Assembly: GCA_937922015.1 (NCBI GenBank)
Contig: CAKZVB010000263.1
Coordinates: 1-34,652, forward strand
Origin: an uncultured Granulosicoccaceae bacterium
GTDB taxonomy: Bacteria; Pseudomonadota; Gammaproteobacteria; Granulosicoccales; Granulosicoccaceae
Length of the DNA stretch: 34,652 nt
Direction: 5' to 3'
The notes beneath the pieces were generated by a model. The model searched no databases. It was given only the letters and a program-made list of their open reading frames with translations, and was not told where the DNA came from. The position numbers were made by a program, and so were the translations under genes. Shown piece after piece: positions 1,768 to 34,266 of this stretch. Positions within the stretch are counted from its first letter, which is position 1. Each line of letters begins with the position of its first letter.

Positions 1768-1838
1768 CTTTGCGCATCGGGAGATAATCCGGGCGATGCC
1801 AGGTGGATTTGTTTACCGCTTGATTGTAGTGGAATCTT

Positions 1839-2489: not shown

Positions 2490-2529
2490 TAATTTCTTAT
2501 CAGTCGATTCGCTGGTGGCCGCCTGATAA
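2486..2529 (+). repeat. Three copies of CTGATAA (two direct, one inverted) at the end of rsmG
   Basis: CTGATAA at 2486-2492 and its complement TTATCAG at 2497-2503 form a perfect 7-bp stem with a 4-base TTTC loop that includes the rsmG stop codon. A third copy in direct orientation is at 2523-2529, so the middle arm could pair with either flank. No T-run follows, so it is not a standard intrinsic terminator. The role is unknown. Confidence 0.5.
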
Positions 2530-2688
2530 AAGTGTGACAAATTTTTCACCGCTGCAGTCGTCAATACAAGGCGAAAAAGTGCAGGCATACAGGACGAACG
2601 TCGAGCTTTTGCAACGCAGCATTGGCGGCTGTAGCGAAGAAAAATGTTACCCTGTTAATTGAGCGGCACACCAGGCATCGGAATCAGA

Positions 2689-3513
2689 ATGGCAAGAATA
2701 ATAGCTATCGCAAATCAAAAGGGCGGGGTGGGCAAAACTACAACGGCCGTCAATCTTTGCGCGGCTCTTGGCGAAACTCAACGTAGTGTCCTGCTGATCG
2801 ATATGGATCCACAGGGCAATGCCACAACCGGATCAGGTGTTGATAAAGAATCGCTGGAGCAAAGCGCCTGTGATGTTCTGATGGGTGAAAGCAGCAGCGA
2901 GCAGGCCATTGTCTCTCCAGAGCATATTAAATTCGATGTGTTGCCATCCAACTCTGATTTGACCGCCGCCGAGGTTCAGTTGATGACCGAGCCAGGCCGT
3001 GAACAGCGTTTGACCAAAGCATTGGAAAGTGTCGCCGATCGTTACGATTACATCTATATTGATTGCCCTCCGGCGCTGAACGTACTGACGCTTAACGCAT
3101 TTGTCGCCTCTGATGGTGTGTTAATACCTATGCAGTGCGAATATTATGCGCTGGAGGGATTAACCTCACTTTTGCGAACTATTAAGCAAGTACAGGCCGC
3201 GGTAAACCCGCGACTTCGAATAGAAGGTATCCTGCGAACCATGTTTGATGGTCGCAACAAACTGAGTCACGAAGTTTCAAGCCAGCTGACTGAGCATTTC
3301 GAATCAAAAGTGTACCGCACTGTGATACCGCGAAATATCCGCCTGGCAGAGGCTCCCAGTTTTGGTCAACCTATCGTCTACTACGACAAATCTTCTCGTG
3401 GCTCGATCGCCTATCTGGCGCTGGCCGGTGAGATCATACGTCGCGAGGTCAGCAGACAGGCGGCGTCAGTCAAACCAACAACTGTTCCAGACACTGTAGT
3501 CTCCGGTGCTTAG
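2689..3513 (+). CDS. parA: Chromosome-partitioning ATPase ParA (Soj)
   Basis: Deviant-Walker-A ATPase that works with ParB-parS complexes to segregate the origin region. I place the start at the ATG at 2689 (274 residues, beginning MARIIAIANQ), not at an upstream in-frame TTG at 2659, because the family begins a few residues before the P-loop. The deviant Walker A motif KGGVGKTTT is at residues 11-19; DMDPQGNAT and DCPPALNVLTLNA (Walker B region) follow. The C-terminal RNIRLAEAPSFGQP segment is characteristic of chromosomal Soj proteins. parB follows after 48 bases, presumably in one transcript. I found no parS site in the window. Confidence 0.96.
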   Translation: MARIIAIANQKGGVGKTTTAVNLCAALGETQRSVLLIDMDPQGNATTGSGVDKESLEQSACDVLMGESSSEQAIVSPEHIKFDVLPSNSDLTAAEVQLMTEPGREQRLTKALESVADRYDYIYIDCPPALNVLTLNAFVASDGVLIPMQCEYYALEGLTSLLRTIKQVQAAVNPRLRIEGILRTMFDGRNKLSHEVSSQLTEHFESKVYRTVIPRNIRLAEAPSFGQPIVYYDKSSRGSIAYLALAGEIIRREVSRQAASVKPTTVPDTVVSGA

Positions 3514-3561
3514 CCGTTGTTATTGAGCTGAACAGAAAACGATGAAATTAAGGCTAGAAAA

Positions 3562-4539
3562 TTGGCGCAGGTAAAAAAGGGCGGTTTAGGACGCGGGTTG
3601 AGTGCACTGCTGGGTGTTGATGACGTAGCTGATGATGCGCCGGTACAGCAGCCAGTCGAAGCCCATGAAAACGTTAAGCCGCCCGCGCCAGGTGCTTCAC
3701 CCGTGGCCTCCCCGGCTAATGTAACCGCTACCGCACACGGTGTTGGCGAAACTGCCCCGGCTGACGTGGTGTCTGAAATACCAGTGGACAAAATTACCCG
3801 CGGTACTTTTCAGCCACGGCAGCATTTCGATGACGAATCTCTACAGGAACTTGCCGATTCAATTTCAGCGCAGGGGCTTATCCAGCCAATATTACTCAGG
3901 AAACGCGCTGGTGGTTATGAACTGATTGCCGGTGAACGACGCTGGCGCGCGGCGCAATTGATTGGTCTTGAAAAGATACCGGCCATTGTGCGTGAAATGG
4001 ATGACGGTACAGTGGCGGCGGTCACCCTGATTGAGAACATCCAGCGAGAAAACCTGAATCCGCTGGAAGAAGCGCGAGCGCTGCATCGATTAAAGAACGA
4101 ATTCAGCATGACTCACCAGGACGTTGCCGACGCGGTGGGACGCTCAAGAACTGCAGTTACTAACTTGATTCGTCTTCTGGATCTGGATGACCGGGTGGCG
4201 GAAATGCTTGCGTCCGGCAAAATCGAAATGGGCCATGCGCGGGCCATTCTGAGCCTGTCGAACGAGGAGCAACACATAGTGGCAATGAAAGTCTATGCCA
4301 ACGGACTTTCTGTCAGAGCTACTGAAACCATGGTTCGAGGTGGCGTCAATAAAAAACCCGCCAAAAAAGAGCTGCCAAAATCCCGGCAGAGCAGTCACAT
4401 CAAGTCACTGGAAAATGATTTGTCAGACAAGCTGGGCGCACCGGTCACTATTGCGCACAAACCGGGTAACAGGGGTACTATTACTCTGACATATAGTTCA
4501 CTCGATGAGCTCGATGGGATTCTTGCACACATAAAATAA
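3562..4539 (+). CDS. parB: Chromosome-partitioning protein ParB (Spo0J), TTG start
   Basis: parS-binding CTPase clamp protein, partner of ParA. The only plausible start is TTG at 3562: an in-frame TGA lies at 3529, no ATG or GTG intervenes, and an AAGG Shine-Dalgarno sits at 3550-3553 with 8-base spacing. The N terminus KKGGLGRGLSALLG is the ParA-interacting tail typical of chromosomal ParB. A low-complexity Pro/Ala/Val linker (about 21-70) is followed by the ParB/Srx domain with the CTP-binding box GERRWRA (124-130) and ENIQR (158-162), the helix-turn-helix (about 185-215, VGRSRTAVTNLIRLL) and a C-terminal dimerisation domain. At 325 residues it is slightly long because of the linker. Confidence 0.96.
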   Translation: MAQVKKGGLGRGLSALLGVDDVADDAPVQQPVEAHENVKPPAPGASPVASPANVTATAHGVGETAPADVVSEIPVDKITRGTFQPRQHFDDESLQELADSISAQGLIQPILLRKRAGGYELIAGERRWRAAQLIGLEKIPAIVREMDDGTVAAVTLIENIQRENLNPLEEARALHRLKNEFSMTHQDVADAVGRSRTAVTNLIRLLDLDDRVAEMLASGKIEMGHARAILSLSNEEQHIVAMKVYANGLSVRATETMVRGGVNKKPAKKELPKSRQSSHIKSLENDLSDKLGAPVTIAHKPGNRGTITLTYSSLDELDGILAHIK

Positions 4540-4644
4540 GACGCGTTAGAGCCGGGTTTGACGGTTACTTTGTGTTGATCAGGATAGAAATCGATTTGAC
4601 CCTCTGGCAGGCCGCTAAATGTGCATTATTAAGTGTAATGAAGC

Positions 4645-4673
4645 TTGACCCGTAGATACCGTCTCTTTACAAT
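4645..4673 (+). promoter_or_regulatory. Predicted sigma70-type promoter of the atp operon
   Basis: A -35 TTGACC (4645-4650) and a -10 TACAAT (4668-4673) are separated by exactly 17 bases. The start would fall near 4680, giving a leader of about 70 bases before atpI. This is the best promoter match in the 211-base parB-atpI gap and fits known transcription of atp operons from upstream of atpI. Confidence 0.7.
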
Positions 4674-4750
4674 ACCGCGCGATAGGCAGGCTTGTCTTAA
4701 CACGTGACGGAACACGATTTATAGACTATATAGTTACGGAATAAGTGATT

Positions 4751-5125
4751 ATGGCTGGGCGTAAACCACACACGGCCGTTGTCAAACGCCTGCTTTTGGT
4801 TCAATTGCTTGTGGCGGTTCTGTTTCCTCTGGCGTTACTGCCATTTGGAACGAACGCTGCATTGTCAGCTGCGGCGGGTGGCCTCGCCAGTTTGATTCCC
4901 AATTTGTATTTTGCGTATCGGGCATTTCAATTCTCGGGCGCGAGGTCCGCACAAAAAATATTGCGGTCCTTTTACGCGGGTGAAGGGGTCAAGCTCGTAT
5001 TGACAGCGCTTATTTTTGCGCTTTGTTTTATATATCTGGAAACGCTAAACGCCGCTGCGCTGTTTGGCGGGTTCATCATGGTTCAACTGGCGATATGGGT
5101 AACTCCATGGCTTGCGAATCGATAA
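4751..5125 (+). CDS. atpI: ATP synthase protein I (AtpI)
   Basis: Small hydrophobic membrane protein of the atp operon, thought to help c-ring assembly and Mg2+ handling; it is not part of the finished enzyme. I use ATG 4751 (124 residues, MAGRKPH...), not the GTG six bases earlier, because the family starts with a short basic tail. Four hydrophobic segments can be seen: around LLLVQLLVAVLFPLALL, AALSAAAGGLASLIPNLYF, LVLTALIFALCFIYL and ALFGGFIMVQLAIWV. It is the first gene after the predicted atp promoter and lies 27 bases before atpB, as in other proteobacteria. Confidence 0.92.
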   Translation: MAGRKPHTAVVKRLLLVQLLVAVLFPLALLPFGTNAALSAAAGGLASLIPNLYFAYRAFQFSGARSAQKILRSFYAGEGVKLVLTALIFALCFIYLETLNAAALFGGFIMVQLAIWVTPWLANR

Positions 5126-6010
<885 letters not shown>

Positions 6011-16051: not shown

Positions 16052-16738
16052 ATGCAAAAGAAAGCGGTGGTGCTGCTCAGTGGTGGTCTTGATTCAACGA
16101 CGGTTGCTGCTATCGCCCGAAAAAAAGGATATGAAATATATGCCCTGTCTTTTCGATACGGACAGCGGCACGAGGCAGAAATTTCAGCCGCCGGCGCCGT
16201 TGCCAAATTGCACGGAATTTCCCGTCACGTCATCGTTGATATTGATCTGAGAGTATTTGGTGGATCGGCATTGACGGATGATATTGAAGTACCGAAACAC
16301 CTGGACGGAAAGATACCGGAAGGTGTACCAATAACCTATGTTCCCGCAAGAAACACCATTTTCCTGTCCTATGCGCTGGCCTGGGCTGAAGTTCTGCAGT
16401 GCCATGATATTTTTATTGGTGTTAATGCCGTCGACTATTCAGGTTATCCGGATTGCAGACCCGAGTTTATTCAGTCGTTTGAGAGTATGGCTAATTTGGC
16501 CACCGTGATAGGAACGGAATCGCAAAAGTCCATAAGCATTCAAACACCGTTGATCGATATGACAAAGGCCGAGATAATAAAAACCGGAATTGCGCTTGGA
16601 GTCGACTATGGGGTAACCACGAGTTGTTATGATCCGGCGGATAGCGGCGAACCCTGTCGCCAATGTGACGCCTGTTTACTCAGGGCACAGGGTTTTGCAG
16701 ATGCAGGCATTGCAGATCCACAACTACAAAAATACTAG
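16052..16738 (+). CDS. queC: 7-cyano-7-deazaguanine synthase QueC
   Basis: ATP-dependent enzyme that converts 7-carboxy-7-deazaguanine (CDG) to preQ0 on the queuosine pathway. The PP-loop SGGLDS is at residues 10-15. The C-terminal zinc-binding cysteines are all present: C192, C202, C205 and C208 in the CYDP...PCRQCDAC segment. The 228-residue length is typical. No other queuosine gene is in the window. Its TAG stop (16736-16738) overlaps the stop of the convergent allH inside a CTAG palindrome, so the two genes meet tail to tail with no spacer. Confidence 0.96.
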
Positions 16739-17634
16739 TGTCTGTTAAAGGTATTTAGTTTTACCAGGTGCTGCAATGTTATATGCACACCAAGCAAGGT
16801 GTAAAACCCCGAGCTTTCCCCATGGTGGCATAATGTTGCCGCAGCATTTGAGATGTTTTTGATCGTAACTGCGTTGTTACTACTATTAGTCATTACGAAG
16901 TATGTGCTTAAGTTCAAAAGCGTATGTACATGGTCTATCGCCATGCCGTCACACGCTGCAATCAAATGGGCGTGACTGATTGAATTTGTTTTTCCAGGTG
17001 CTTCTTTCATCACCCATGTCCGTAATTGACTGAACGAATTTTCCACACCTAAAATATGCAAAGCCACCAGCATACCCACCAGAATGTCATCCCCGGCTGG
17101 TGTCAGTCCGTCTCCACAGCCAATTAGACCGGTTAAATCTGCGGGTAGCGATCCTGAGGCCCAAAGCCAGTGACTGAGCATGGATTTATACTCGCTCAGC
17201 CGGGTGTCAATAATGTTGGAGGTTACTGTGTCCAGCGCTGTGTCTTTATTAGCTCTGTAGCTTGCTATTACTTCTTGCAGTGCGGTAGTGACCGAGTTCA
17301 GCGCGACAACGTTGTCTTTGTTAAGGATCAGTTCAGGGGGATCGGATGGTTTCCTATACCGAGTATTCAGTGTTGAAAATTGATAACTGTCTGAGAGAAT
17401 CAGCTGCTGTTGTTCGTAGGTCCATCGGTCACCCACCTTAATTTCACTGAGATGTTGCAACTCGGTTCGAATATTAAGTGGTCCGGTTGGAATCGCTTTT
17501 GTGCCCAGGCAGCACAAGGCATCGTTTGCGCAAAGATAGATGGAACTACTGAACAGGGCGATTATCTCACCTCTGGCTGCTTCGATTACTGTTTTAGCCA
17601 GCGGGCCACAGTCGGTAATGTTTGATACCAGCAA
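16735..17634 (-). CDS. allH: AllH-like oxamate carbamoyltransferase subunit (DUF2877), TTG start
   Basis: DUF2877 protein related to E. coli YlbF/AllH, one of the three proteins reported to form oxamate carbamoyltransferase, which phosphorolyses oxalurate to oxamate and carbamoyl phosphate. The family signature is [15 protein letters not shown] at residues 169-183; an N-terminal segment with LFSSSIYL and GPLNI also fits. At 299 residues it is slightly longer than E. coli AllH. The start must be TTG at 17634 or further inside, because the codon just upstream, in the same frame, is the TAA stop of allF. I see no SD, so translation probably depends on coupling to allF or on readthrough. It is the last gene of the operon. 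Confidence 0.8.
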
Positions 17635-19173
17635 TTACGCAATTCGATTGATAATGGCCGCGGCAAGCTCAGCCGCTGCTGTGTTGCAGTTGCAGACGGT
17701 GATGCCGCACTCTAGTAGAGCGTCCTGTTGCTCGTGCAGTTTCTGGGGATCGTACTCGGTACCACACACAGAGGCTATCAGTACCGGACCTTGATCGTTA
17801 GTGGCGTGGTATTTTTGTACAGCCTCTGCAATAGCCTGTACAGGATTGTTGTGAGCGCCGTAGCCCAGAACCAAATCCAGAAGAATCACTGCGGTGTCAG
17901 GATTGTGTAGGTTTTCTTCAAGGATAGGTATGCGTACAAGTGGTTCCATCATCGGGTGTGGGCGACCCACAGTGTATTCATCAGCGCCCAGATCAATTAT
18001 CTGGTGGCTGGAGGCATTAACTTTGTCGATATGTGCTGAACCTGGCACCGGTGCGTTGGATGAAGTGGTGAGTCCCATTCGTTGCAGAATTAATTGTGTT
18101 TCTGTGCATAAGGTCCCACCGGTGTAAAGCCCTGTAAGGTTTTTGCGTGTGTTGTTAAGACTGCCGGTCAGCTGATCGGCCAGTGCATCAGTGTCTTGCC
18201 GGGGTAGTGATTTACCACTGGCCAGTTCAGCGGTTTCTCTGAGCGTGGAGGCGTATTGAATGTGCTCCTGATATGCAGATTCGCTTTGTCCAAATACGCA
18301 TGCGATTGCGGATTTACCACAACGACTGAGTTTGTCGAACACCAATTTTGCTGTGGCATTGCCCGGTGGTTTTGAAATAAGAACTATTTGATCGACAGAG
18401 CTATCTTTTGCCAACAGATCAATGGCGGTAAGTGTTGAGATTCCACCGATATCGTCGCTGAGGTCGCGACCGCCAACACCAATTCCGTGTTTTAGTACAC
18501 CACCTAGCATTGAAAACAGCACGGCAAATTCCTGCAAGCCGGTGCCGGACGCCGCGATAACGGCTGTTGTACCCTGTGACAGATCCGGGTGGCTGGATGG
18601 CAGAGCAAGAGCGTTTGCAAAAGCCAATGGCACACCGTTGATATACGCGGTGCCACAGTCCGGTCCCATCACAATTAACTCTTTTTGTTGCGCCAGCCTT
18701 TTAAGAGATGCCTCCTGTTCCAGACTGACGTTGTCGCTGAATATCATCACGTTCAGACCGTGCTCAAGTGCGCTGCGAGCTTCACGCGCAGCGTAGCTTC
18801 CGGGTGTTGATATCAGCGCCAGGTTGGCATCCGTATGGGTGGTAAGTTCACCGCGCAGGGTGCGGGCGCTGGCTGTCGTGGCACTCGATTTAAGCGCACC
18901 ACCTTCCAGTGATTTGTTGGCCAGCGCCAGTGCCCGGTTGCCACTGGCTTTACTGGCAGCACGCAGTGCGATGACCAGGTCATTTGGTCCGGCCGTTTCA
19001 CCGGTACTGTTTAACACGCCGGCGTCACGCATGATCTGGATGTTCGATGGTGTACCTATCATTAGAACGGCATCTTCGATACCGTCACTGGCTGTTATTT
19101 CAGCAGACAGGCGCATCAGCGCAACTGAATCCAGATAGAATCCTTTGCGTATCTCATTAATAATTTCACTCAC
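17635..19173 (-). CDS. allF: AllF/FdrA-like oxamate carbamoyltransferase subunit, GTG start
   Basis: FdrA-family protein with a succinyl-CoA-synthetase-like fold. E. coli AllF (FdrA) acts with AllG and AllH as oxamate carbamoyltransferase. Visible marks are an N-terminal IGTPSNIQIM (39-48), MGPDCGTAYINGVPLAFAN (169-187), the glycine-rich AASGTGLQEFAVLFSMLGG (207-225), GIGVGGRDLSDDIGG (230-244), GLYTGGTLCTE (348-358) and DLGADEYTVGRPHPMMEP (394-411). The 512-residue length is usual for the long form. Its GTG start overlaps the allG stop (GTGA), and its TAA stop is directly followed in frame by the TTG of allH. The product could in principle act on another carbamoyl or acyl substrate, but the neighbours argue for oxalurate. 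Confidence 0.85.
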   Translation of the reverse strand: MSEIINEIRKGFYLDSVALMRLSAEITASDGIEDAVLMIGTPSNIQIMRDAGVLNSTGETAGPNDLVIALRAASKASGNRALALANKSLEGGALKSSATTASARTLRGELTTHTDANLALISTPGSYAAREARSALEHGLNVMIFSDNVSLEQEASLKRLAQQKELIVMGPDCGTAYINGVPLAFANALALPSSHPDLSQGTTAVIAASGTGLQEFAVLFSMLGGVLKHGIGVGGRDLSDDIGGISTLTAIDLLAKDSSVDQIVLISKPPGNATAKLVFDKLSRCGKSAIACVFGQSESAYQEHIQYASTLRETAELASGKSLPRQDTDALADQLTGSLNNTRKNLTGLYTGGTLCTETQLILQRMGLTTSSNAPVPGSAHIDKVNASSHQIIDLGADEYTVGRPHPMMEPLVRIPILEENLHNPDTAVILLDLVLGYGAHNNPVQAIAEAVQKYHATNDQGPVLIASVCGTEYDPQKLHEQQDALLECGITVCNCNTAAAELAAAIINRIA

Positions 19174-20594
19174 AGTGATGTCAACCTTTCAGACAATGCC
19201 ACACAAGCTTTTTCAAAGCAGGCCAGTGGTGCGTTAACCACACCTGCGCCTACCTGACCGATACCGGGCTGACGATGCGCTATGCCGGTATTGATCGTCG
19301 GTGTGATACCGGAACTCACCACTTTGCGAATGTCGATACCCGATGGCACACCGGCAAAATCAAGCGCCGGTATGGTCCACTCCGGATTTCTCGAGTGGGT
19401 GATCTCAGCCATCTGGTTGGTATAAGTGACAGCATCTGCAGCACCGCCGGCACCGACAAAGCCTGCTACCGCTGGAGAGGCTGCCATGGCGAATCCACCC
19501 AGACCGATGGTTTCAACGATGGTTGAATCACCCATATCAGGGTTGGCATCTTTTTCCGTGAAACCGGGGAAATAAAGACCCCGTGGCATTTCTACGGGGG
19601 CGGTAAACCACTCGTCGCCGCAACCGCTGACGCGTATTCCAAAGTCAGTGCCATTGCGCGACATGGCAGTGACAATTGAGGAGCCGCCAATACCTTTGAC
19701 CGGATCCATGATGGCTTTGCCCATGGCCATTGCTATGTTGAGGAAGAATTGATCATTGCCCGCGATAAACTCCAGTACCTCGCAGGCGGTATCGGGTTCG
19801 GTTACCCGTGCCATGGTGGGTGCCAACTCCCTCAGGATCAAACTGGTGCAGGCGACGTTGCGCTGATGCATTTCATCGCCCATGGATAAACCGCGGGCAA
19901 TTATATTTTTAAGACCCACGCCATCGCAGGCTAAGAGCGTATCAGCCAATAGCGGACCCAGAGTAGTTTCAAGCCATCGCAATCTGTCGAGTACAGATTC
20001 ATCGTTGCCGCCGAAACGCATGACTTTGCCAAGTCCTTCGTTTATCGCACAATAGCTTTTATTACCGAAGGTGGTATTTTCCACTACCATCAATGGCATT
20101 GATCGTGTGGTGATACCTGTCATCGGTCCCACCGCATTGTGATGATGATTGGGTTCGAAATCTATTTTGCCAGCCGCGGCCATTTTTTCTGCTGCTAGCA
20201 GATCTTTTGCCCAGCCTTCCAGGACGATAGCGCCACAAATAGCACCCTGCATAGGTCCGCACATCTGTTGCCATTGCACCGGCGGCCCGGCATGTAGAAG
20301 TTTATGTTCACCCAGTCCTTCAATAACTTCGCCGGCCAGTCGCACGTCGACCAACACCGGATTGGCGGTGTGCATCTTTTCAATGGCCTGCAGGTTGGCT
20401 TTGTCGACCATAGCTGCCAGGCTTCCCCAGCTGAGCGCGTCGCAGCTGGCCAGTACATTCATGTCTTTGCTGGCGGGTGGTCGCCAGTCCACCGCGGTTG
20501 CCTGAACTGCCTGTGCGGTCAGGTCGTCGACAAATCCTTTTAATCCTACCCCTATGACTTTCGGGCCGTTGTTCAGTAAGTCTGCTGCTGACAT
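19170..20594 (-). CDS. allG: AllG-like oxamate carbamoyltransferase subunit (DUF1116, YlbE family)
   Basis: DUF1116 protein related to E. coli YlbE/AllG, the third part of oxamate carbamoyltransferase. The N terminus GVGLKGFVDDLTAQAVQATAVDWRPP (residues 15-40) matches the family opening. HAGPPVQWQQMCGPMQGA (101-118) and NHHHNAVGPMTGITT (149-163) are rich in residues likely to bind substrate. The C-terminal glycine-rich segment GFVGAGGAADAVTYTNQM also fits. The 474-residue length is normal. It starts at ATG 20594, only 13 bases after the aminotransferase gene, and overlaps allF by four bases. The gene order here (G, F, H) differs from E. coli (F, G, H). Confidence 0.85.
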   Translation of the reverse strand: MSAADLLNNGPKVIGVGLKGFVDDLTAQAVQATAVDWRPPASKDMNVLASCDALSWGSLAAMVDKANLQAIEKMHTANPVLVDVRLAGEVIEGLGEHKLLHAGPPVQWQQMCGPMQGAICGAIVLEGWAKDLLAAEKMAAAGKIDFEPNHHHNAVGPMTGITTRSMPLMVVENTTFGNKSYCAINEGLGKVMRFGGNDESVLDRLRWLETTLGPLLADTLLACDGVGLKNIIARGLSMGDEMHQRNVACTSLILRELAPTMARVTEPDTACEVLEFIAGNDQFFLNIAMAMGKAIMDPVKGIGGSSIVTAMSRNGTDFGIRVSGCGDEWFTAPVEMPRGLYFPGFTEKDANPDMGDSTIVETIGLGGFAMAASPAVAGFVGAGGAADAVTYTNQMAEITHSRNPEWTIPALDFAGVPSGIDIRKVVSSGITPTINTGIAHRQPGIGQVGAGVVNAPLACFEKACVALSERLTSL

Positions 20595-20607
20595 TGTTGT
20601 TATACCC

Positions 20608-21846
20608 CTAAGTAGCTGCAGGTCGGTTGTAAACCGCCAGGGCTGCGTCTACACCGGCACCCGCGCTGGCGTTATGACCATGGCGTCGCAGGGTCATTTC
20701 GAGTGCGGCGAGACACGCCAGCACATTGTCTTTACGGCAACCGAATCCCATGGTGCCTATTCGCCAGATTTTACCGTGTAGCGGTCCAAAAGAAGTCCCT
20801 ATTTCGATGCCGAAATCGTTTAGCATTTCGCCGCGAACAGTATCGCCAACGACAGTATCCGGAATGTAGACGCCAGTGACGTTGGGCATTTTATTTTGCT
20901 GATCACCAAACACCTGCAGATCCATGGCCTGTAGTCCACTGACCAGTGCTTCACTGGTTTGAAGATGTCTGTCAAAGCGAATTTGCCATCCCTCCTTTAA
21001 TACTATACGTGCGCACTCGCGGGCGGCGTAGAGCATGGAAGTGGCTTCGGTATGATGATTCAGCCGCGCCTCACTCCAGTAGTCCATAATCATTGAGAGG
21101 TCAAAATAGTTTGATTGAATCATTTCACCGTCAGCGGCCTGATAGTCGTCTGGTCTTATGCCCTGTTCTATGTGTTTTCGTGAACGTACCAGTTCGGCGA
21201 TTCGTTCATTAATGGTGATTGGCGCGATTCCCGGCGGACCGGATAAACACTTTTGCAATCCGGCCGTCACAGCGTCAATCTGCCAGTCGTCTGTGAGTAG
21301 CGGCATGCCGGTAATAGAGGCTGTTGCATCGACACAGATTAATACATCGTGAGCGCGGCAGATTTTACCGATCTCATCCAGAGGCTGTGCCATGGTGGTA
21401 GAGGTGTCACCCTGTACACAGGCAACTACCTTGGGACGATGTTGTTTGATCGCATCTTCAATTTGTTGCGGGTCGAACACTGTGCCCCATTCGGTTTCAA
21501 TGGTGATTACTTCTGCATGGCAGCGTGTTGCGATTTCAGAAAGCAGATGACCGAAGCGGCCGAATACCGGAACCAGTATTTTATCGCCGGGGTTTATCAC
21601 CGATACCATCACTGATTCAATACCGGCTCGCGCTGTGCCGTCGATCAGCATTGTCCAGTGGTTGTCGGTGCAAAAAATACCGCGATACAAAGACATGATC
21701 TCATTCATGTAGCCGGTGAAGTGCGGGTCGAATTGACCAAGCATCGGCATTGACATCGCGTTCAGTACTCGCGGGTCAACTTCGACCGGGCCGGGGCCCA
21801 TCAGGCGTCTGACCGGAGGGTTTAGATCTTCAAAGAGGTTTTGCAT
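20608..21846 (-). CDS. pucG: PucG-type (S)-ureidoglycine--glyoxylate aminotransferase
   Basis: PLP-dependent class-V aminotransferase of the AGXT family. PucG transfers the amino group of ureidoglycine to glyoxylate, giving oxalurate and glycine. I prefer ATG 21846 (412 residues) over a GTG five codons upstream. The opening RRLMGPGPVEVDPRVLNAM and the PLP lysine in GLQKCLSGPPG (K199) are clear. Instead of the GHMDP-like motif common in alanine:glyoxylate enzymes it has GQFDP with Q38, and Asn instead of the usual Tyr before the HHT motif (NHHTEAT, N263). As I recall, Gln and Asn at these two positions mark PucG (Q37 and N264 in Bacillus subtilis). Context with allantoate and oxalurate genes supports this; alanine- or serine-glyoxylate aminotransferase is the alternative. 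Confidence 0.82.
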   Translation of the reverse strand: MQNLFEDLNPPVRRLMGPGPVEVDPRVLNAMSMPMLGQFDPHFTGYMNEIMSLYRGIFCTDNHWTMLIDGTARAGIESVMVSVINPGDKILVPVFGRFGHLLSEIATRCHAEVITIETEWGTVFDPQQIEDAIKQHRPKVVACVQGDTSTTMAQPLDEIGKICRAHDVLICVDATASITGMPLLTDDWQIDAVTAGLQKCLSGPPGIAPITINERIAELVRSRKHIEQGIRPDDYQAADGEMIQSNYFDLSMIMDYWSEARLNHHTEATSMLYAARECARIVLKEGWQIRFDRHLQTSEALVSGLQAMDLQVFGDQQNKMPNVTGVYIPDTVVGDTVRGEMLNDFGIEIGTSFGPLHGKIWRIGTMGFGCRKDNVLACLAALEMTLRRHGHNASAGAGVDAALAVYNRPAAT

Positions 21847-21899
21847 TTTGCACCGTGGCACGCAGGCCGCAAATAGGTACTGCCATGATAATATGAAGT

Positions 21900-21938
21900 G
21901 CCCGTCGATAGAACTGAAATGGTTCTACGCAGTCGGGC
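21900..21938 (-). promoter_or_regulatory. Long intercistronic hairpin between arcC and pucG
   Basis: Nested complementary arms in the 104-base gap: GCCCG (21900-21904) with CGGGC (21934-21938), and TAGAAC (21909-21914) with GTTCTA (21922-21927) around a 7-base loop; a CG pair with a one-base bulge extends the inner stem. On the minus strand, which is transcribed, no U-run follows, so it looks like an mRNA processing or stabilising element or attenuator, not a terminator. On the plus strand it is followed by TTTT, but no plus-strand gene is there. Confidence 0.5.
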
Positions 21939-21950
21939 TTTTGACAAGTA

Positions 21951-22898
21951 TTATCGGGAAATCCGGGTACCGGTGTCGCCGGCCAGGGCAGCGACGGCAT
22001 CGTCGAGGTGTGCAATGACGGCACGTTTGCCACCGTTTTGTAAAAACCCGATTGCCGCCTCTATTTTCGGTCCCATGCTGCCCTCGGCAAATTCGCCATC
22101 AGCTTGCAATTGCACCATTTCATCCAGTGATACCGCATCCAGTCCCCGCTGATTGGCTTGCCCGAAGTTTATATAGACTTTATCCACTGCGGTCAGGATC
22201 ATCAGGGTGTCGATGCCAAGCACATTTGCCATCAGCGCCGAGCTTAAATCTTTGTCGATGACTGCCTCGATCCCGTGGCGAGTGCCGTCATCGTTTCTGA
22301 TAACCGGAATACCGCCACCACCGCCTGCAATTACCACCGCACCACTTTGCGCAATGGTTTCTATCAGTGAGATGTCGACAATGTGTTTTGGCCGCGGAGA
22401 TGGCACTACATAGCGCCAGCCCCGCCCGGAATCTTCATGCATCGTCCAGCCAAGTTTTTTCTCGATATCACGGGCGTCCGATTCGCTGTAGAAAGCACCC
22501 ACTGGTTTGGTTGGATGGCTGAACGCCGGATCATCGCGGTCAACTTCGACTTGTGTCAGCAGGCAGACTACATGTCGTTGATTGCCGACACTGCGCAGCG
22601 CGTTTTCAAGGTTTTGCATCAGCAGGTAGGCGATGCCACCCTGACTGTGTGCTACGCACACATCCATACTCATGGGTGGAACTGTATCGCGGGAGAGAAT
22701 CTGGCGCATCAGGATTTTGCCCACCACCGGGCCGTTGCCATGAGTAATGATTAGCTGGTTGTCCATTTCCAGTATTGGCAGCAGGGCATTACCGGTTTTG
22801 ACTGCAAATTCAATCTGCTGTTCTACTGTGCCGGGCCGCCGCGTAGGGTGAATCGCATTGCCTCCGACTGCAATTAGTACTCGATCAGTTTTTGCCAT
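21951..22898 (-). CDS. arcC: Carbamate kinase
   Basis: Catalyses carbamoyl phosphate + ADP -> ATP + carbamate, which breaks down to NH3 and CO2. The amino-acid-kinase fold is clear: VGGNAI (11-16), THGNGPVVG (52-60), GGIAYLLMQ, the ATP-site segment AGGGGGIPVI (191-200) and TAVDKVYINFG (236-246). The 315 residues match the family. It sits inside the allantoate operon, after the amidohydrolase and before the aminotransferase, with no arginine deiminase or ornithine carbamoyltransferase nearby. Its carbamoyl phosphate therefore most likely comes from AllFGH, as with AllK in E. coli. The gap from the preceding gene is 11 bases, with no clear SD. Confidence 0.93.
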   Translation of the reverse strand: MAKTDRVLIAVGGNAIHPTRRPGTVEQQIEFAVKTGNALLPILEMDNQLIITHGNGPVVGKILMRQILSRDTVPPMSMDVCVAHSQGGIAYLLMQNLENALRSVGNQRHVVCLLTQVEVDRDDPAFSHPTKPVGAFYSESDARDIEKKLGWTMHEDSGRGWRYVVPSPRPKHIVDISLIETIAQSGAVVIAGGGGGIPVIRNDDGTRHGIEAVIDKDLSSALMANVLGIDTLMILTAVDKVYINFGQANQRGLDAVSLDEMVQLQADGEFAEGSMGPKIEAAIGFLQNGGKRAVIAHLDDAVAALAGDTGTRISR

Positions 22899-22909
22899 AG
22901 GTAATCAGT

Positions 22910-24154
22910 TTAGACGTTGGTATCGAATCGGGTGAGTAAATTCATGATTACCGTCGCTGCAGCGGCAGCGTCTTCCTGCGTAATACTTTCATCAGGATGA
23001 TGGCTCAAACCATTTTTACAGCGAACGAATAACATTGCGACAGGGGTGAGTTTTGCCAGTGCCATGGCATCGTGACCTGCGCCGCTTGGCAGCGAATGTA
23101 GTCTGTAGCCTGAACTTGAAATAGCACTACCCAGCTGATCGCTGAGCCAGCTATCGCAGCTGGTGCTGGCTGCCTGGTAAGTGCGCTCGTGTTGAATGGT
23201 AACTTGTCTGCGTTTTGAAATTTCTGCCAGTGACGCAAATATTCTGGCCTCTGCGTTATCGCGATAGGTGTCCTGGCTGGACCGAAGGTCTAATGAGAAT
23301 TCAACATCGCCCGGGATCACGTTACCTGCACCGGGCAGCGCTGTGATCATACCGACGGTGCCTACGACATGAGCCATATTTGTGCATATGTGCTCTATAT
23401 CAACAATACACTCTGATGCTGCAACCAGTGCGTCCTGTCGCAGACCCATGGGAACTGTGCCCGCGTGACCGGCACTGCCCGTCACTTTCACCCGGTAACG
23501 GGATGCACCCGAAATAGCGGTGACCAGGCCCACTGGAAGATCTTCTCTTTCCAGTACCGGTCCCTGTTCGATATGGACTTCAACAAAACCAAGTAGTTCT
23601 TCTGCCTTACGGCGTGCGGTAGCCAGAGCCGTGGGATCACAGCCGAAACCTTTGAGCGCCTCGGCGATAGTGATACCACTGGCATCCCGGTCCTGTAACA
23701 CAGCCTCGTCGATGGTACCGGCAATTGCTCTCGACCCGAGTAGCGTTGACGGAAAGCGTACTCCCTCTTCATCGCAAAAGCCGACTATTTCCACCGGATA
23801 GGGCAGGCGCTGTTTTTTTTCGTGCAGTAGTTCAATGCAAACAAGCGGAAGCACCACCCCCAGCATGCCATCATAGCGACCGCCATTGCGCACAGTATCC
23901 AGGTGCGAGCCGATCATTAGTGCAGGTCCGTCGGATTCACCTTCGTAGCGGCCAATGATGTTGCCTATGGAATCGGTTCGAACACTCATGCCGGCGGCTG
24001 TCATCCACTGCGCGACAAGCGAGTTTGCACGCTTGTGTTCAGCAGAAAACGACACCCGGGTGAGATTTTCCGGTGATTCGGAGATCTGTGCCAATGCGTC
24101 GATATATTTAAATATTCGCGTGCCAGTTGCAGCGCTCTGATCTATATTTGCCAT
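22910..24154 (-). CDS. allC: Allantoate amidohydrolase (M20 family Zn/Mn-dependent hydrolase)
   Basis: Predicted to hydrolyse allantoate to ureidoglycine, NH3 and CO2 in the cytoplasm. The M20 metal ligands are all visible: H84 in GSHLDTV, D95 in GGRYDGMLGV, E129/E130 in CDEEGVRF, H194 in EVHIEQGP and a His near 385 in LSHHPDE. The dimerisation insert carries VTGSAGHAGTVPM (224-236), as in the AllC, ureidoglycolate amidohydrolase and N-carbamoyl-L-amino-acid hydrolase group. The 414-residue length is typical. The family call is firm; the substrate is inferred from the operon. N-carbamoyl-amino-acid amidohydrolase or ureidoglycolate amidohydrolase remain alternatives. It is the first gene of the six-gene operon. 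Confidence 0.82.
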   Translation of the reverse strand: MANIDQSAATGTRIFKYIDALAQISESPENLTRVSFSAEHKRANSLVAQWMTAAGMSVRTDSIGNIIGRYEGESDGPALMIGSHLDTVRNGGRYDGMLGVVLPLVCIELLHEKKQRLPYPVEIVGFCDEEGVRFPSTLLGSRAIAGTIDEAVLQDRDASGITIAEALKGFGCDPTALATARRKAEELLGFVEVHIEQGPVLEREDLPVGLVTAISGASRYRVKVTGSAGHAGTVPMGLRQDALVAASECIVDIEHICTNMAHVVGTVGMITALPGAGNVIPGDVEFSLDLRSSQDTYRDNAEARIFASLAEISKRRQVTIQHERTYQAASTSCDSWLSDQLGSAISSSGYRLHSLPSGAGHDAMALAKLTPVAMLFVRCKNGLSHHPDESITQEDAAAAATVIMNLLTRFDTNV

Positions 24155-24401: not shown

Positions 24402-24881
24402 TTATTTAGAGCCTCCGCCCGGCTCTTCAATCGCACTTATGTCAACCATGTTCCACGGCTGACCCGCATTGCGATAAAGACGTTTGCCCTTGTCGGGATA
24501 TTCGCCAACGTCGTGTGGCAGGCGTTGCCCCACAACAATACATTTTAAAGTAGCTGTGCCGGTGTTGGTGAGTTTATGTGCTTCACCACCTGCCCGGTAG
24601 CCAATAAAATCTCCGGCTTTCACAGCGGACCTGTTATCCCCGATTAACGATTCTGCTTCGCCCTCGAGGATATATACGCATTCTTCTTCGTAGTGGTGTT
24701 TATGAAACTCGGTGGATTCATGGCCTGGCTCCACTTCAATAATGTGAAAGCCGATGTTTTGCAGGCCGGTCAAATCTCCCAGAGATTTGTTGACGCGTTT
24801 GGCATTGGGGTTCAGGAAATGCGTTTTATCCGTACCTGGTAATTCGCTGATTTCCTGCTTGCTGATTATGTACTTATCCAT
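24402..24881 (-). CDS. Single-domain cupin protein of unknown function
   Basis: A 159-residue cytoplasmic cupin. Cupin motif 1 is at 53-74 (G53, H60, H62, E66/E67, G74; core FHKHHYEEECVYILEG) and motif 2 at 90-106 (GDFIGYRAGGEAHKLTN, H102), so a metal site with three His and one Glu is likely. It resembles the COG3837 group, often annotated simply as cupin. It sits 247 bases upstream of allC on the same strand, so it could belong to the allantoate locus. It is too short to be AllE, the (S)-ureidoglycine aminohydrolase, which has two cupin domains and about 260 residues. Its start region is covered by a nested inverted repeat. Confidence 0.8.
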   Translation of the reverse strand: MDKYIISKQEISELPGTDKTHFLNPNAKRVNKSLGDLTGLQNIGFHIIEVEPGHESTEFHKHHYEEECVYILEGEAESLIGDNRSAVKAGDFIGYRAGGEAHKLTNTGTATLKCIVVGQRLPHDVGEYPDKGKRLYRNAGQPWNMVDISAIEEPGGGSK

Positions 24882-28860: not shown

Positions 28861-29553
28861 TTAGCGGCGGGTTTTGAAATGATCGGCGCTTTGATTAAAC
28901 AGGGTTTTATTGTTTTGTGCGTTATGCCGGCCGCGATTCTGTTGATCTTTTAACAGATCAACACCTCGACGTACGGCAGGTCTCTCTTTTATTTTTCCGC
29001 GCCAGGCACTGACATTGGGAAATTCTTCAAGTGACGATGTCAATGGTCTGGCGATGAGTACCCAGGGAAACGCAATGATGTCTGCAATGCTGTACTGCTC
29101 GCCCAGAATATATTCTCTGTCGCTGAGTTGTCGTTCAAGCACAGCCAGATTTCGTTGGTACTCGCCAAGATAACGATTGCGGGAATAGTCCTGACCTTCA
29201 GGAGCGTAGTTAACAAAGTGACTTAGCTGTCCACCCATCGGGCCCTGGTTGCCGGTTTGCCAGAACAGCCATTGCAGGGCGTCGACTCTGCCTTTGTCGT
29301 CGGACGGCATGAGTCGTCCTGTCTTGTTGGCCAGATAGTAGAGAATAGCACCTGACTCGAATACACTGGTTTGCGCTTCGCGATCTACAATCGCTGGCAT
29401 TTTGGCGTTGGGGCTGATCGCCAGAAATTCCGCTTTGAATTGATCACCTGCGCCGATCTCCACCGGGATAGTTTGATAGGCAAGGTCCAATTCTTCCAGC
29501 ATGATTGAAACTTTCCATCCATTGGGGGTTGGCCAGTAATAGAAGTCAATCAT
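28861..29553 (-). CDS. Glutathione S-transferase, Ure2p/YfcG-like
   Basis: A 230-residue GST. The N-terminal thioredoxin-like domain begins MIDFYYWPTPNGWKVSIMLE, the Nu/Ure2-like opening, and has the glutathione-binding cis-Pro and ES motif in NAKMPAIVD...VFESGAILYYLA. The C-terminal helical domain has YILGEQYSIADIIAFPWV. The role may be disulfide reductase or conjugation activity; the substrate is unknown. Its ATG overlaps the CoA-transferase stop (ATGA), showing tight coupling. A basic, polar tail after residue 205 is likely disordered. Confidence 0.9.
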   Translation of the reverse strand: MIDFYYWPTPNGWKVSIMLEELDLAYQTIPVEIGAGDQFKAEFLAISPNAKMPAIVDREAQTSVFESGAILYYLANKTGRLMPSDDKGRVDALQWLFWQTGNQGPMGGQLSHFVNYAPEGQDYSRNRYLGEYQRNLAVLERQLSDREYILGEQYSIADIIAFPWVLIARPLTSSLEEFPNVSAWRGKIKERPAVRRGVDLLKDQQNRGRHNAQNNKTLFNQSADHFKTRR

Positions 29554-30752
29554 GTGTTATTTCCCTGCTTTGAGATTGCGGCACCACTGGACAACAACGA
29601 GCTTACTTGTTCCCTGCTAAAACCCGCCTCGATCAGCACTTCGGTGGTGTGCTGACCATGCGCTGGTGCAGGCCTGGGCGGTTCAATGGTATTGAATGAA
29701 AACTGTGCGGGCTGGCGTGCCTGTCGCAGTTGACCCGCCGCGGGATGATCGCAGTTAAGCAGAGTCCGGTTTGACTCAATTTGGCCATGTCTTATCATTT
29801 CACCTCGGGTCAGCACCGGTGCGCACGGTACGTCTTGTGCCTCCAGTCTCTGGATTATGTCTGCGCTGTTGAATACCAGCACGGCCTCCTGGGTCAGCCG
29901 TGTTCTGGCGTCTTTGTTTTCCTCTCGCAAGGCAGCGGTGACAAATCTTTTATCTTCCAGAAAATCCGGTCTTGCAACGGCTTTTGATAACCCTCTCCAG
30001 TCTTTATCAGCGACGACGGCAACACTAATGTAGCCGTCTTTTGTCTCGTAGACTAAATCGATGTAAGACTGCGCGGTTTCTTGCTGAAGTTCGTCTCCGA
30101 TGAAGGTGTGACCGCCCATGTCAGAGCTCCACAGAAAGAACACGACAGTATCAAGCATGGAGATGTTGATGTGTTGTCCGGTCCCTGTTTTTAGTTTGGC
30201 AAACAGCGCTGCAGTGATTGCCTGAGATGTCTGAATTGCGGTGAGCTTGTCCGGCACAATGGTGCGCACAAGCCTTGGCCGTTGCTCGTCAGAGCCGCCC
30301 TGTACTGTTGTCAGCCCGGATACTGCCTGAATCAAAGGATCGAATACCGGTTTTTGTGCGTATGGCCCGGTAGCGCCGAAGCCACTGATTGATACGGTGA
30401 TCAACTCCTTATTGACTGATCTTAAAACTTCTTCACCCAGGCCGATTCTGGCGGCCACACCAGGTCTGAAGTTTTGAATAAAAACATCGGCGTTCTCGAC
30501 CAGTTTGAGCAAGACCTCAGTGCCCTGTTGATTTTTGAGATCCAGCGCGACGGATCGTTTGTTGCGGTTGTTGTTTAAAAAGGACGCCGAATAGCCGCCG
30601 CGACGCGTGGCAACCTTTCTGGAGTGATCGCCCTGTGGTGATTCTATCTTGATCACATCCGCGCCCTGATCGGCGAGCATCATGGTGCAAAGCGGACCAG
30701 AGATCATTGTTGTCAGGTCGATTATCCTGACGCCGTCGAGTGGGCCTGCCAT
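29550..30752 (-). CDS. CaiB/BaiF family (class III) CoA-transferase
   Basis: A 400-residue class III CoA-transferase that moves CoA between carboxylic acids. Family marks: PLDGVRIIDLTTMISGPLCT (N terminus), LADQGADVIKIESPQGD, the NNNRNKRSVALDL segment and the catalytic aspartate D168 in IVPDKLTA, corresponding to D169 of formyl-CoA transferase; also ISGFGATGPYA. A strong AGGGGA SD precedes the ATG. It is the first gene of the operon with GST, thioesterase and ThDP enzyme, and is divergent from tdk. Formyl-, succinyl- or mesaconyl-type donors cannot be told apart by eye. Confidence 0.9.
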   Translation of the reverse strand: MAGPLDGVRIIDLTTMISGPLCTMMLADQGADVIKIESPQGDHSRKVATRRGGYSASFLNNNRNKRSVALDLKNQQGTEVLLKLVENADVFIQNFRPGVAARIGLGEEVLRSVNKELITVSISGFGATGPYAQKPVFDPLIQAVSGLTTVQGGSDEQRPRLVRTIVPDKLTAIQTSQAITAALFAKLKTGTGQHINISMLDTVVFFLWSSDMGGHTFIGDELQQETAQSYIDLVYETKDGYISVAVVADKDWRGLSKAVARPDFLEDKRFVTAALREENKDARTRLTQEAVLVFNSADIIQRLEAQDVPCAPVLTRGEMIRHGQIESNRTLLNCDHPAAGQLRQARQPAQFSFNTIEPPRPAPAHGQHTTEVLIEAGFSREQVSSLLSSGAAISKQGNNT

Positions 30753-32535: not shown

Positions 32536-34266
32536 CTACAGAACCTGAGTATTTTTCTTCCACCAGTCATCGGCCGAACGTTTTACCTCTGCACCATGAA
32601 ATCGGGCCAGTTTGTTGGTCGGTGACAATGCTTCTGAATAGAAAAATTCCGGCAGATCATCGTCTTCGTCATCAAAACCGGCAAGCTTGTTAAACTCGTT
32701 TTCAAGTCTCAGGGTGTCAACCCCCAGAGTAGTGTAGAAATCCGGCGTAAGTGATGTACCGTGTGCGTCGTTAAGCGCATTGACCATGAAGTCGATTTTC
32801 TCATTGGTTACTGAACGTCCGAAAATGCAAAGCCCGAGTGAGTCGCTGGAAGCGCAAAGCACTTGTGTGTCCAGGCTTGCATGCACCAGTTCTTCAATAT
32901 CTTTGCCTTCGCTTTCATAGGCTGGCAGATTGCCGGCTGTGTGGTCTGCACCCTGTGCCGTCATCATCATGGTCAGGCCGGTGACTTCTATTACACGCGG
33001 GTCGTAGGCGCTGATGGTTTGCTTCTTTATCACCGGCACGCGTTTCATGCCGTAGTGCTCACCCACTCTGGCTGCACCCTGAGCGACTAGCTTGCCGTGT
33101 TCTGTGCCGCGGCGAAGATCCTGATCGATTATCTTCTCCATAAAAGACACGTCTCCGAACCGGGCGTCGCCGGCGTCCATTAGTACCCCTAGTGTACCGC
33201 CCAGTTCGATCGTATCTACACCCAGATCATTGGCCAGCCAGTTGATGTTGGCAAGATCATCCGGTTCGGTGATGCCACAGTTAGTACCCAGTAAACCGAT
33301 GGTTTCGTACTCGATAGGAGAAACCACCTCGTTACCGTCGGCATCTGCGTAGACGTTGCTGCATTGAATCAGGCAGCCCGGCATGCAGGCGTGGGTGGTT
33401 TCGCCGCCGCGCTCTATATTCTGTTCTCGTAAATAGTCGCCACTTAACTTGAACGTCTCTGTGCTGATATCGGCGGCCCGGCCGCTGGTGAAATTGCGCA
33501 CCGGTATACCGCCCAGTTTATTGATGACATCTGACATCATGGCGGTGCCGGTTTTGGCGAAGTTGTCGATGGCGGGCTCTGCCTTGAGCATCTTGTTGTA
33601 TTCGCGAACGGCACCCATGAGTTTCTTGCGCTCGTGGAATTGCGGCATTTTATGCAGATCAACGATTACCGCCTTGACCTTTTTATTTCCCATGACAGCA
33701 CCAACGCCGCCACGGGCGCTCAGGCGTGATGGACGTAAGTCCACATCACTAAAGGCGATACCCGCAAGCAGGCCTTCGTATTCGCCAACGGGCCCGCACA
33801 GGCCGATACTGCATTTTTTGCCGTATTTTTCGTGCAGCTTTGCAGCGGTTTCAAAATTTCCCATGCCCATGTAAGGTTCGGCTGATTCGAACGTGATGTC
33901 ACCCGCTTTAGTAAAGTGAATGATCACCCATTCATCGGAGACGTTGTTGAGGGTAAAGCCTGCCAGTTCAAGCTGTCCCAGAGCAAAGCCAAATGTACCG
34001 CCGGAATTTGATTCCTTTATGCCGCCGGTTAAAGGGCTTTTACAGCCGACACTGGTGCGGTTAGCGTTCGAGAAATTACTACCGGCAAACGGGCCGGCTG
34101 AGAATATAAGCGGGTTGTCTGCAGATAACGGGTCGACAGTGGCGACGCCGAGATTAACCAGAGTTTTTGCTATCAGGTGACGACCGGCGCTGATGATTTC
34201 TTCGCCGTGTAATTCTTGTTTCCGGACTGACCGATCGCTGAGATCGATATGACAGTAGGTACGCAT
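32536..34266 (-). CDS. Tungsten-type aldehyde:ferredoxin oxidoreductase family protein
   Basis: A 576-residue AOR-family enzyme, expected to oxidise an aldehyde (or reduce an acid) using a bis-pterin tungsten cofactor and one 4Fe-4S cluster. Cluster cysteines appear as C294, C298, C302 (ACMPGCLIQCSN) and C480 (LGLCIFG); the first pair is spaced CX3C, not the CX2C of Pyrococcus AOR. Pterin-site motifs are the N-terminal GCKSPLTGG (74-82), ARGGVGAVMGNKKVKA (184-199) and GADHTAGN (439-446). No small ferredoxin subunit or cofactor-synthesis gene is adjacent. The SD is GGAGA and a promoter lies just upstream. The aldehyde substrate is unknown. Confidence 0.9.
   Translation of the reverse strand: MRTYCHIDLSDRSVRKQELHGEEIISAGRHLIAKTLVNLGVATVDPLSADNPLIFSAGPFAGSNFSNANRTSVGCKSPLTGGIKESNSGGTFGFALGQLELAGFTLNNVSDEWVIIHFTKAGDITFESAEPYMGMGNFETAAKLHEKYGKKCSIGLCGPVGEYEGLLAGIAFSDVDLRPSRLSARGGVGAVMGNKKVKAVIVDLHKMPQFHERKKLMGAVREYNKMLKAEPAIDNFAKTGTAMMSDVINKLGGIPVRNFTSGRAADISTETFKLSGDYLREQNIERGGETTHACMPGCLIQCSNVYADADGNEVVSPIEYETIGLLGTNCGITEPDDLANINWLANDLGVDTIELGGTLGVLMDAGDARFGDVSFMEKIIDQDLRRGTEHGKLVAQGAARVGEHYGMKRVPVIKKQTISAYDPRVIEVTGLTMMMTAQGADHTAGNLPAYESEGKDIEELVHASLDTQVLCASSDSLGLCIFGRSVTNEKIDFMVNALNDAHGTSLTPDFYTTLGVDTLRLENEFNKLAGFDDEDDDLPEFFYSEALSPTNKLARFHGAEVKRSADDWWKKNTQVL

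Follow-up and report, generated by a model that had tools for sequence, protein, structure and literature searches.

We analyzed a 34,652-nucleotide stretch of DNA (hereafter the window; contig CAKZVB010000263.1 of assembly GCA_937922015.1) from an uncultured Granulosicoccaceae bacterium, which carries a predicted operon for ureide breakdown. Six open frames occupy positions 16735..24154 of the minus strand and encode, in the direction of transcription, an allantoate amidohydrolase (AAH), a carbamate kinase, a ureidoglycine-glyoxylate aminotransferase (UGXT) and the oxamate carbamoyltransferase subunits AllG, AllF and AllH (Table 1). The frames and the family models agree with the original prediction, which had placed and named the six genes in this way. 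The spacings between the genes (11, 89, 13, -4 and 0 bases in order of transcription) fit a predicted single transcription unit, and the 3′ end of allH shares four bases with the convergent queC. A scan for promoters and terminators returned counts near the shuffled mean (12 versus 8.2 and 10 versus 8.1). Overall, we consider it likely that these genes combine two known ureide routes in one hybrid pathway.

Table 1. Genes of the predicted ureide operon, in order of transcription.
Product	Position	Strand	Models, structures or other support
Allantoate amidohydrolase (AAH, M20 family), first gene	22910..24154	-	NF006775
Carbamate kinase	21951..22898	-	TIGR00746, NF009007
Ureidoglycine-glyoxylate aminotransferase (UGXT, PucG/HpxJ type; class V)	20608..21861	-	3nnk, 3isl, clade
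AllG, oxamate carbamoyltransferase subunit	19170..20594	-	PF06545, 3clq
AllF (FdrA), oxamate carbamoyltransferase subunit	17635..19173	-	NF004760, 3dmy
AllH, oxamate carbamoyltransferase subunit, last gene	16735..17634	-	PF11392

Specific family models are passed by five of the six proteins, the aminotransferase being the exception. Its only match over a cut-off is to the general Aminotran_5 model (79 bits, cut-off 21.5), and its identity was therefore placed through solved structures. The best of these are 3nnk (558 bits) and 3isl, which is PucG (489 bits), followed by an alanine-glyoxylate aminotransferase (267 bits). The depositors of 3nnk named it ureidoglycine-glyoxylate aminotransferase, and we take it to be HpxJ of Klebsiella. 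The window protein is 60.3% identical to 3nnk and 55.5% to PucG, compared with 37.3% and 40.1% to two rows of the alanine-glyoxylate type. In a tree of 50 rows (short search, SH-aLRT support only), it lies inside a 44-row UGXT clade together with PucG and 3nnk (support 100), and the six outgroup rows lie outside. It keeps 38 of 54 columns that 3nnk and PucG share and the outgroup lacks, and 27 of the 29 strict ones among them, in which at least 95% of the rows from amidase-type loci (described below) agree as well; the hybrid rows used for this count did not include L079 and L134. The motif QKCL is present, its lysine presumably being the PLP lysine. These data support the assignment as a predicted UGXT and agree with the earlier description of the enzyme as PucG-type.

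All three AllFGH subunit genes stand together with the carbamate kinase gene in the operon. AllG matches PF06545 with 303 bits (cut-off 27) and 3clq with 399 bits, and is 54% identical to E. coli AllG/YlbE. AllF passes NF004760 with 447 bits (cut-off 433), matches 3dmy with 271 bits and is 39% identical to E. coli AllF. AllH passes PF11392 (70 bits, cut-off 25), and BLAST gave no match between it and E. coli AllH at an E value of 1e-5. The carbamate kinase barely passes TIGR00746 (358.9 bits, cut-off 358.25) and passes NF009007 with 338.5 bits (cut-off 266); its identity to E. coli AllK/YbcF is 40.6%.

The combination of UGXT with AllFGH is found in other genomes. An AllG alignment scan of GTDB genomes confirmed 584 stretches, and the best-scoring 80, from named genomes, were kept as AllG loci; they are therefore no random sample. 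Neighborhood genes were called by BLAST identity thresholds against a reference set, with at least 50% identity and half the length for UGXT. In the fetched DNA, UGXT is present in 16 of the 80 loci, and L134 holds a 129-residue piece at its edge that was not counted. L124 and L134 carry both AllD and AllE and were left out, so the hybrid loci, with UGXT and without AllD or AllE in the fetched DNA, number 15, several of them on short contigs. The hybrid loci come from Granulosicoccaceae, Rhodospirillales, Magnetovibrio, Defluviicoccus, Hyphomicrobiaceae, Microvirga, Acidiferrobacteraceae, an unplaced gammaproteobacterium and one Pedosphaera bin. Closer to the window, UGXT occurs in 16 of 57 genomes (the source organism and its relatives), and the 15 genomes with AllG are all among them; the sixteenth UGXT genome (G445) has AllF near UGXT and AAH, together with an AllG that the contig end truncates. 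Both UGXT and AllG were present in 11 of the 13 congeners sampled, and neither in the other two. Of the 12 near loci L230-L241, 11 keep the six-gene order and one, L239, is cut by a contig end; in one congener, a trypsin-like protease gene and two glycosyltransferase genes lie between the carbamate kinase and UGXT (L240:10793-14033). L061/G416 and L073/G434 are apparently the same records, so that the two surveys overlap by two loci. The carbamate kinase gene was found in 16 of 18 AllG-type loci (the window, the 15 hybrids, L124 and L134) and in the 11 near loci that are intact at the contig end. In two congeners (G415 and G422), a urate oxidase or xanthine permease gene adjoins the operon.

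A different arrangement surrounds UGXT elsewhere. Across 398 genomes of the phylum, a UGXT match of at least 56% identity was found in 25, the source genome included, and 32 genomes gave only matches of at most 41%. The loci of the 24 others were read over some 10 kb in both directions, as far as the contig extended. AAH (at least 40% identity) was found in 23 of them, an amidase in 22 and the HpxW-like gene in 19, whereas AllF, AllG, AllH and carbamate kinase were found in none of the 24. Conversely, the amidase was found in none of the 18 AllG-type loci; since these were chosen for AllG, the amidase count alone is unselected there. Therefore, the amidase and AllFGH, two presumed oxalurate cutters, are mutually exclusive beside UGXT in our samples, with 22 of the 24 amidase-type genomes coming from one class. 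No HpxY-type amidase is present in the window; the other contigs of the source genome were not searched for one. The operon resembles a Klebsiella HPX route in which the phosphorolytic AllFGH and carbamate kinase have taken the place of the oxalurate amidase.

Further candidate genes for the pathway lie elsewhere in the source genome. Contig C196 (L015) carries a purine cluster at 1230-6007 with AllE, AllA, a xanthine permease, PuuE allantoinase and OHCU decarboxylase, together with part of PuuD, which was named by eye and by its 70% identity to the Urate_ox_N protein of a congener. AllE scored 438 bits against a cut-off of 338 and adjoins the ureidoglycolate lyase AllA, and PuuE passed its model (528 bits, cut-off 425). 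An allantoinase of the TIGR03178 type was not found over the cut-off in the genome (best 165 versus 358). The listed frames of the C196 cluster include no M20-type allantoate amidohydrolase, which fits an operon AAH that serves both the operon branch and the AllE-AllA branch. Among the genomes of the 15 hybrid loci, AllE was over the cut-off in two and present in two pieces in a third; in the other 12, either nothing matched or the matches were weak cupin hits not above 30 bits, and glyoxylate there would therefore come from ureidoglycine decay or general metabolism.

The proposed exit for oxamate is an HpxW-like protein. Its gene occurs in seven of the 15 hybrid loci, directly after AllH in six and upstream of AllG in one (L084). 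Among solved structures, 5hft scores highest (326 bits for one chain and 258 for the other), which we take to be Klebsiella HpxW, followed by 2nlz, named cephalosporin acylase (274 bits), 2i3o (222 bits) and gamma-glutamyltranspeptidases (at most 181 bits). The source genome encodes a 64%-identical copy outside the operon, at C86:19862-21442, which keeps the threonine where the small chain of 5hft begins and scores under the gamma-glutamyltransferase cut-off (345 versus 358). By eye, none of the frames listed around it looks like a purine gene, and we regard its product as a candidate oxamate amidohydrolase. The HpxW-like gene also occurs in seven of the 63 AllG loci without UGXT, which provides a second link of the AllFGH branch to oxamate. 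Klebsiella HpxW is cited as releasing oxalate and ammonium from oxamate (PMC5270733), and hpxW has been distinguished from ggt through context (PMC3560190). The G+C contents of C196 (48.9%) and C86 (49.7%) are close to that of the window (50.0%), and their four-letter profiles correlate with that of the window at 0.88 and 0.91, respectively (E. coli, 0.81), which weakly suggests that both contigs are correctly binned.

On the basis of these gene assignments, we propose a putative mechanism. PuuE, encoded outside the operon, would supply allantoate, which AAH would convert to ureidoglycine, CO2 and ammonia. UGXT would then transfer the amino group of ureidoglycine to glyoxylate, yielding oxalurate and glycine without a dehydrogenase, after which AllFGH would use phosphate to split oxalurate, releasing oxamate and carbamoyl phosphate, and the carbamate kinase would use the latter to form ATP. 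Outside the operon, AllE and AllA would turn another part of the ureidoglycine into urea and glyoxylate, the amino acceptor, and the HpxW-like protein would convert oxamate to oxalate and ammonia. Since UGXT uses glyoxylate and AllE and AllA could supply it, the two branches could be coupled. We infer that these reactions take place in the source organism with glyoxylate as the acceptor and in the direction of ATP. The original prediction had called the operon complete, which is too strong: the allantoinase, the glyoxylate source and the oxamate outlet lie outside it, with candidates elsewhere in the genome. It had also described a linear route; with AllE beside AllA in the genome, part of the ureidoglycine may go there, and the route would be branched. 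With glyoxylate as the acceptor, the computed balance is 2 allantoate to 1 oxamate, 1 glycine, 1 urea, 4 NH3, 3 CO2 and 1 ATP, and the predicted energy gain would be roughly one ATP for every two allantoate. The steps named in the original prediction are redox-neutral, and the glycine product is carried over from PucG.

Several observations weigh against the hybrid route. AAH is the least certain part of the operon. Although it passes the equivalog model NF006775 (562 bits, cut-off 479), it fails the AllC model TIGR03176 (240 versus 598), its best solved match is the N-carbamoyl-L-amino acid hydrolase 3n5f (317 bits, compared with 176 for E. coli AllC), and its identity to E. coli AllC is only 31.5%. 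The predicted assignment leans on the neighbors, given the homologue in 23 of the 24 other phylum UGXT loci. On contig C80, a second amidohydrolase exceeds the cut-off of one subfamily model with the name allantoate amidohydrolase (688 bits, cut-off 452) and fails the other models so named; it is possibly a second predicted allantoate amidohydrolase. Of the 15 hybrid loci, six contain AAH, two a transcarbamylase-like gene and seven neither, and two of the latter (L075 and L104) were read to about 10 kb on each side. AllFGH is not generally paired with UGXT: UGXT was absent from the fetched DNA of 63 of the 80 best AllG loci and of each of the 18 AllG loci taken from the phylum sample (20 places, less our own and the stop-riddled G243). 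Five of the 24 amidase-type UGXT genomes carry AllG elsewhere (G193, G199, G258, G279 and G300). On C196, AllE also passes an exception model, bifunctional allantoicase/ureidoglycine aminohydrolase (436 versus 350), so another route of allantoate cleavage is possible, and all eight AllA models stay under the cut-off (best 174 versus 260; one 159 versus 160). The source assembly itself is 80.6% complete.

Three other explanations were weighed. Some of these points would suit an operon for another ureido or carbamoyl compound, in which AAH cuts an N-carbamoyl amino acid, the aminotransferase handles an ordinary amino acid and AllFGH takes a different substrate: the solved protein closest to AAH is an N-carbamoyl-L-amino acid hydrolase, many AllFGH loci lack the purine genes looked for, and AllFGH stands beside biuret genes in nitrifiers (PMC12625717). 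However, the UGXT clade and the UGXT-specific columns oppose this explanation, as do the exchange with the amidase, the nearby HpxW-like gene, and the urate oxidase and permease genes that adjoin the operon in congeners, and we regard it as unlikely. Alternatively, the organism might follow a route like that of E. coli, in which AllE forms ureidoglycolate, one of its Ldh_2 proteins acts as AllD and feeds oxalurate to AllFGH, and only a side role is left to the aminotransferase. AllE is indeed encoded on C196, six Ldh_2 proteins are present, and L124 and L134 unite AllD, AllE and UGXT (an edge fragment in L134). Nevertheless, none of the six Ldh_2 proteins exceeds 32% identity to E. coli AllD or 233 bits against a cut-off of 496, whereas AllD controls from three full ALL clusters score 543-597; AllD was over the cut-off in none of the 15 hybrid genomes (best 237), in which AllE is scarce as well, and the AllE of the source organism adjoins AllA. 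The predicted absence of AllD and AllE held for the operon, and no AllD was found in the 80.6%-complete assembly; AllE is nonetheless encoded in the genome. An E. coli-like route therefore seems very improbable to us.

The same low probability is assigned to a different use of the same chemistry, in which a keto acid other than glyoxylate, for instance pyruvate, is the acceptor, with alanine made in place of glycine, or carbamoyl phosphate serves mainly arginine and pyrimidine synthesis and not ATP formation. HpxJ takes several keto acids as acceptors. In E. coli, carbamoyl phosphate is used again in biosynthesis (PMC12535856), but the operon and most AllG-type loci contain a carbamate kinase gene, and glyoxylate could be made here by AllE and AllA.

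The predicted hybrid route is a conserved combination of two known routes, with no new chemistry, as judged from the genes present. With the Klebsiella HPX system (HpxJ, HpxK, HpxY and HpxW) it shares AAH beside UGXT, the proposed formation of oxalurate by transamination and, with the candidate on C86, an oxamate amidohydrolase; HPX-type loci carry the amidase and lack AllFGH and the kinase, which the window has instead. AllFGH and the kinase in place of the amidase would keep energy as ATP. With the oxamate branch of the E. coli ALL system (AllC, AllE, AllD, AllFGH and AllK), it shares AllFGH and carbamate kinase, which convert oxalurate to oxamate and carbamoyl phosphate (PMC11326118). In E. 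coli oxalurate arises via the NAD-linked AllD, whereas in the window it would arise via the predicted UGXT. Bacillus subtilis PucG belongs to the same aminotransferase clade.

E. coli AllFGH was identified as the oxamic transcarbamylase, the tail of the oxidative branch, when its genes were assigned in 2024 (PMC11326118); a 2018 paper still treats the enzyme as one without an assigned gene (PMC6022934). A 2016 review notes briefly, naming no genes for the transcarbamylase, that oxamate may arise via the oxalurate of the ureidoglycine aminotransferase and then be cleaved by HpxW (PMC5270733). Other papers deal with enzyme candidates from genomic context (PMC3364942), PucG as a link uncharacterized in E. 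coli (PMC10163214), oxamate as a dead end in E. coli (PMC12535856) and the occurrence of AllFGHK in nitrifiers (PMC12625717). The joining of UGXT with AllFGH was not found in the open literature searched; the primary PucG, HpxW and HpxJ papers and a 2023 enterobacterial review lay outside that search, and an earlier remark is possible. AllFGH would be tied to a transaminase in mostly uncultured Proteobacteria, as if exchangeable with the Klebsiella amidase, and names such as acyl-CoA synthetase or gamma-glutamyltransferase for such genes would be corrected.

Some hybrid loci suggest a further variant. L099:5621-13931 and L112:5580-13897 contain transcarbamylase-like and asparaginase-like genes, one kinase, UGXT, AllG, AllF and AllH, with no AAH in the fetched DNA; L102:507-5761, a short cut contig, contains the asparaginase-like gene, the kinase, UGXT, AllG and part of AllF. 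The transcarbamylase-like protein of L099 scored 176.8 against the cut-off of 236.95 of the aspartate carbamoyltransferase model, and both such proteins carry the motif HSLP, H(T/S)LP being the motif of ureidoglycine transcarbamylase (PMC4581275). The ureidoglycine transcarbamylase of Rubrobacter xylanophilus resembles the window system in removing a carbamoyl group by phosphorolysis during purine breakdown, with an adjoining kinase, but it acts on allantoate (PMC4016543). Within our survey, L099 and L112 alone have such a gene, beside UGXT and AllGFH; the window has none. If this reading is correct, both carbamoyl groups of allantoate would be passed as carbamoyl phosphate to one kinase in L099 and L112. 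Their asparaginase-like protein is a possible oxamate amidase; another role, ureidoglycine deamination, was proposed for the Rubrobacter asparaginase-like gene (PMC4016543). We tentatively raise, without favoring it, the idea of a third bacterial ureide route that is dehydrogenase-free and removes carbamoyl groups by phosphorolysis, singly in the window and doubly in L099 and L112. The UGXT rows of the hydrolytic Klebsiella route form a single branch within the AllFGH-linked ones (weak support), so that this route may even go back to a phosphorolytic ancestor.

The AllFGH family varies beyond these loci. AllF and AllG are fused in one frame of 998 to 1043 residues, with the AllF part first, in nine of ten loci tested (L116, L117, L119, L120, L122, L123, L124, L136 and L139), which suggests that the two subunits work together. 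Four Bradyrhizobium loci (L089, L091, L093 and L095) have a second set of AllF and AllG adjoining the first, L110 has two AllG, and L135 has two AllF and three AllG. Among the 63 AllG loci without UGXT, L111, L115, L125, L126, L130, L132 and others contain AllF and AllG, often with a kinase, and no purine gene of the reference set; they hint at family members with other substrates.

The genes upstream of the operon (cupin, binding protein and TPP enzyme) probably lie outside the unit, since L061 (AllG 82% identical) has the identical six-gene set and different flanking genes. Two near loci point the other way: in L240 a binding-protein gene (66%) precedes AAH, and in L236 a TPP gene (65%) is found close to AAH. 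As a local ureidoglycine aminohydrolase, the cupin gene at 24402-24881 was rejected (22.6 bits versus a cut-off of 200), its best solved match being a putative sugar phosphate isomerase. Two candidate oxalate outlets found no support: the CoA-transferase at 29550-30752 scored under the formyl-CoA transferase cut-offs (233 versus 442 and 216 versus 504), and the TPP enzyme at 26750-28378 matches the 5-guanidino-2-oxopentanoate decarboxylase model (701 bits, cut-off 500). Near the end of the window, a minus-strand frame at 32536-34266 weakly matches aldehyde ferredoxin oxidoreductase models (59 bits versus a cut-off of 868).

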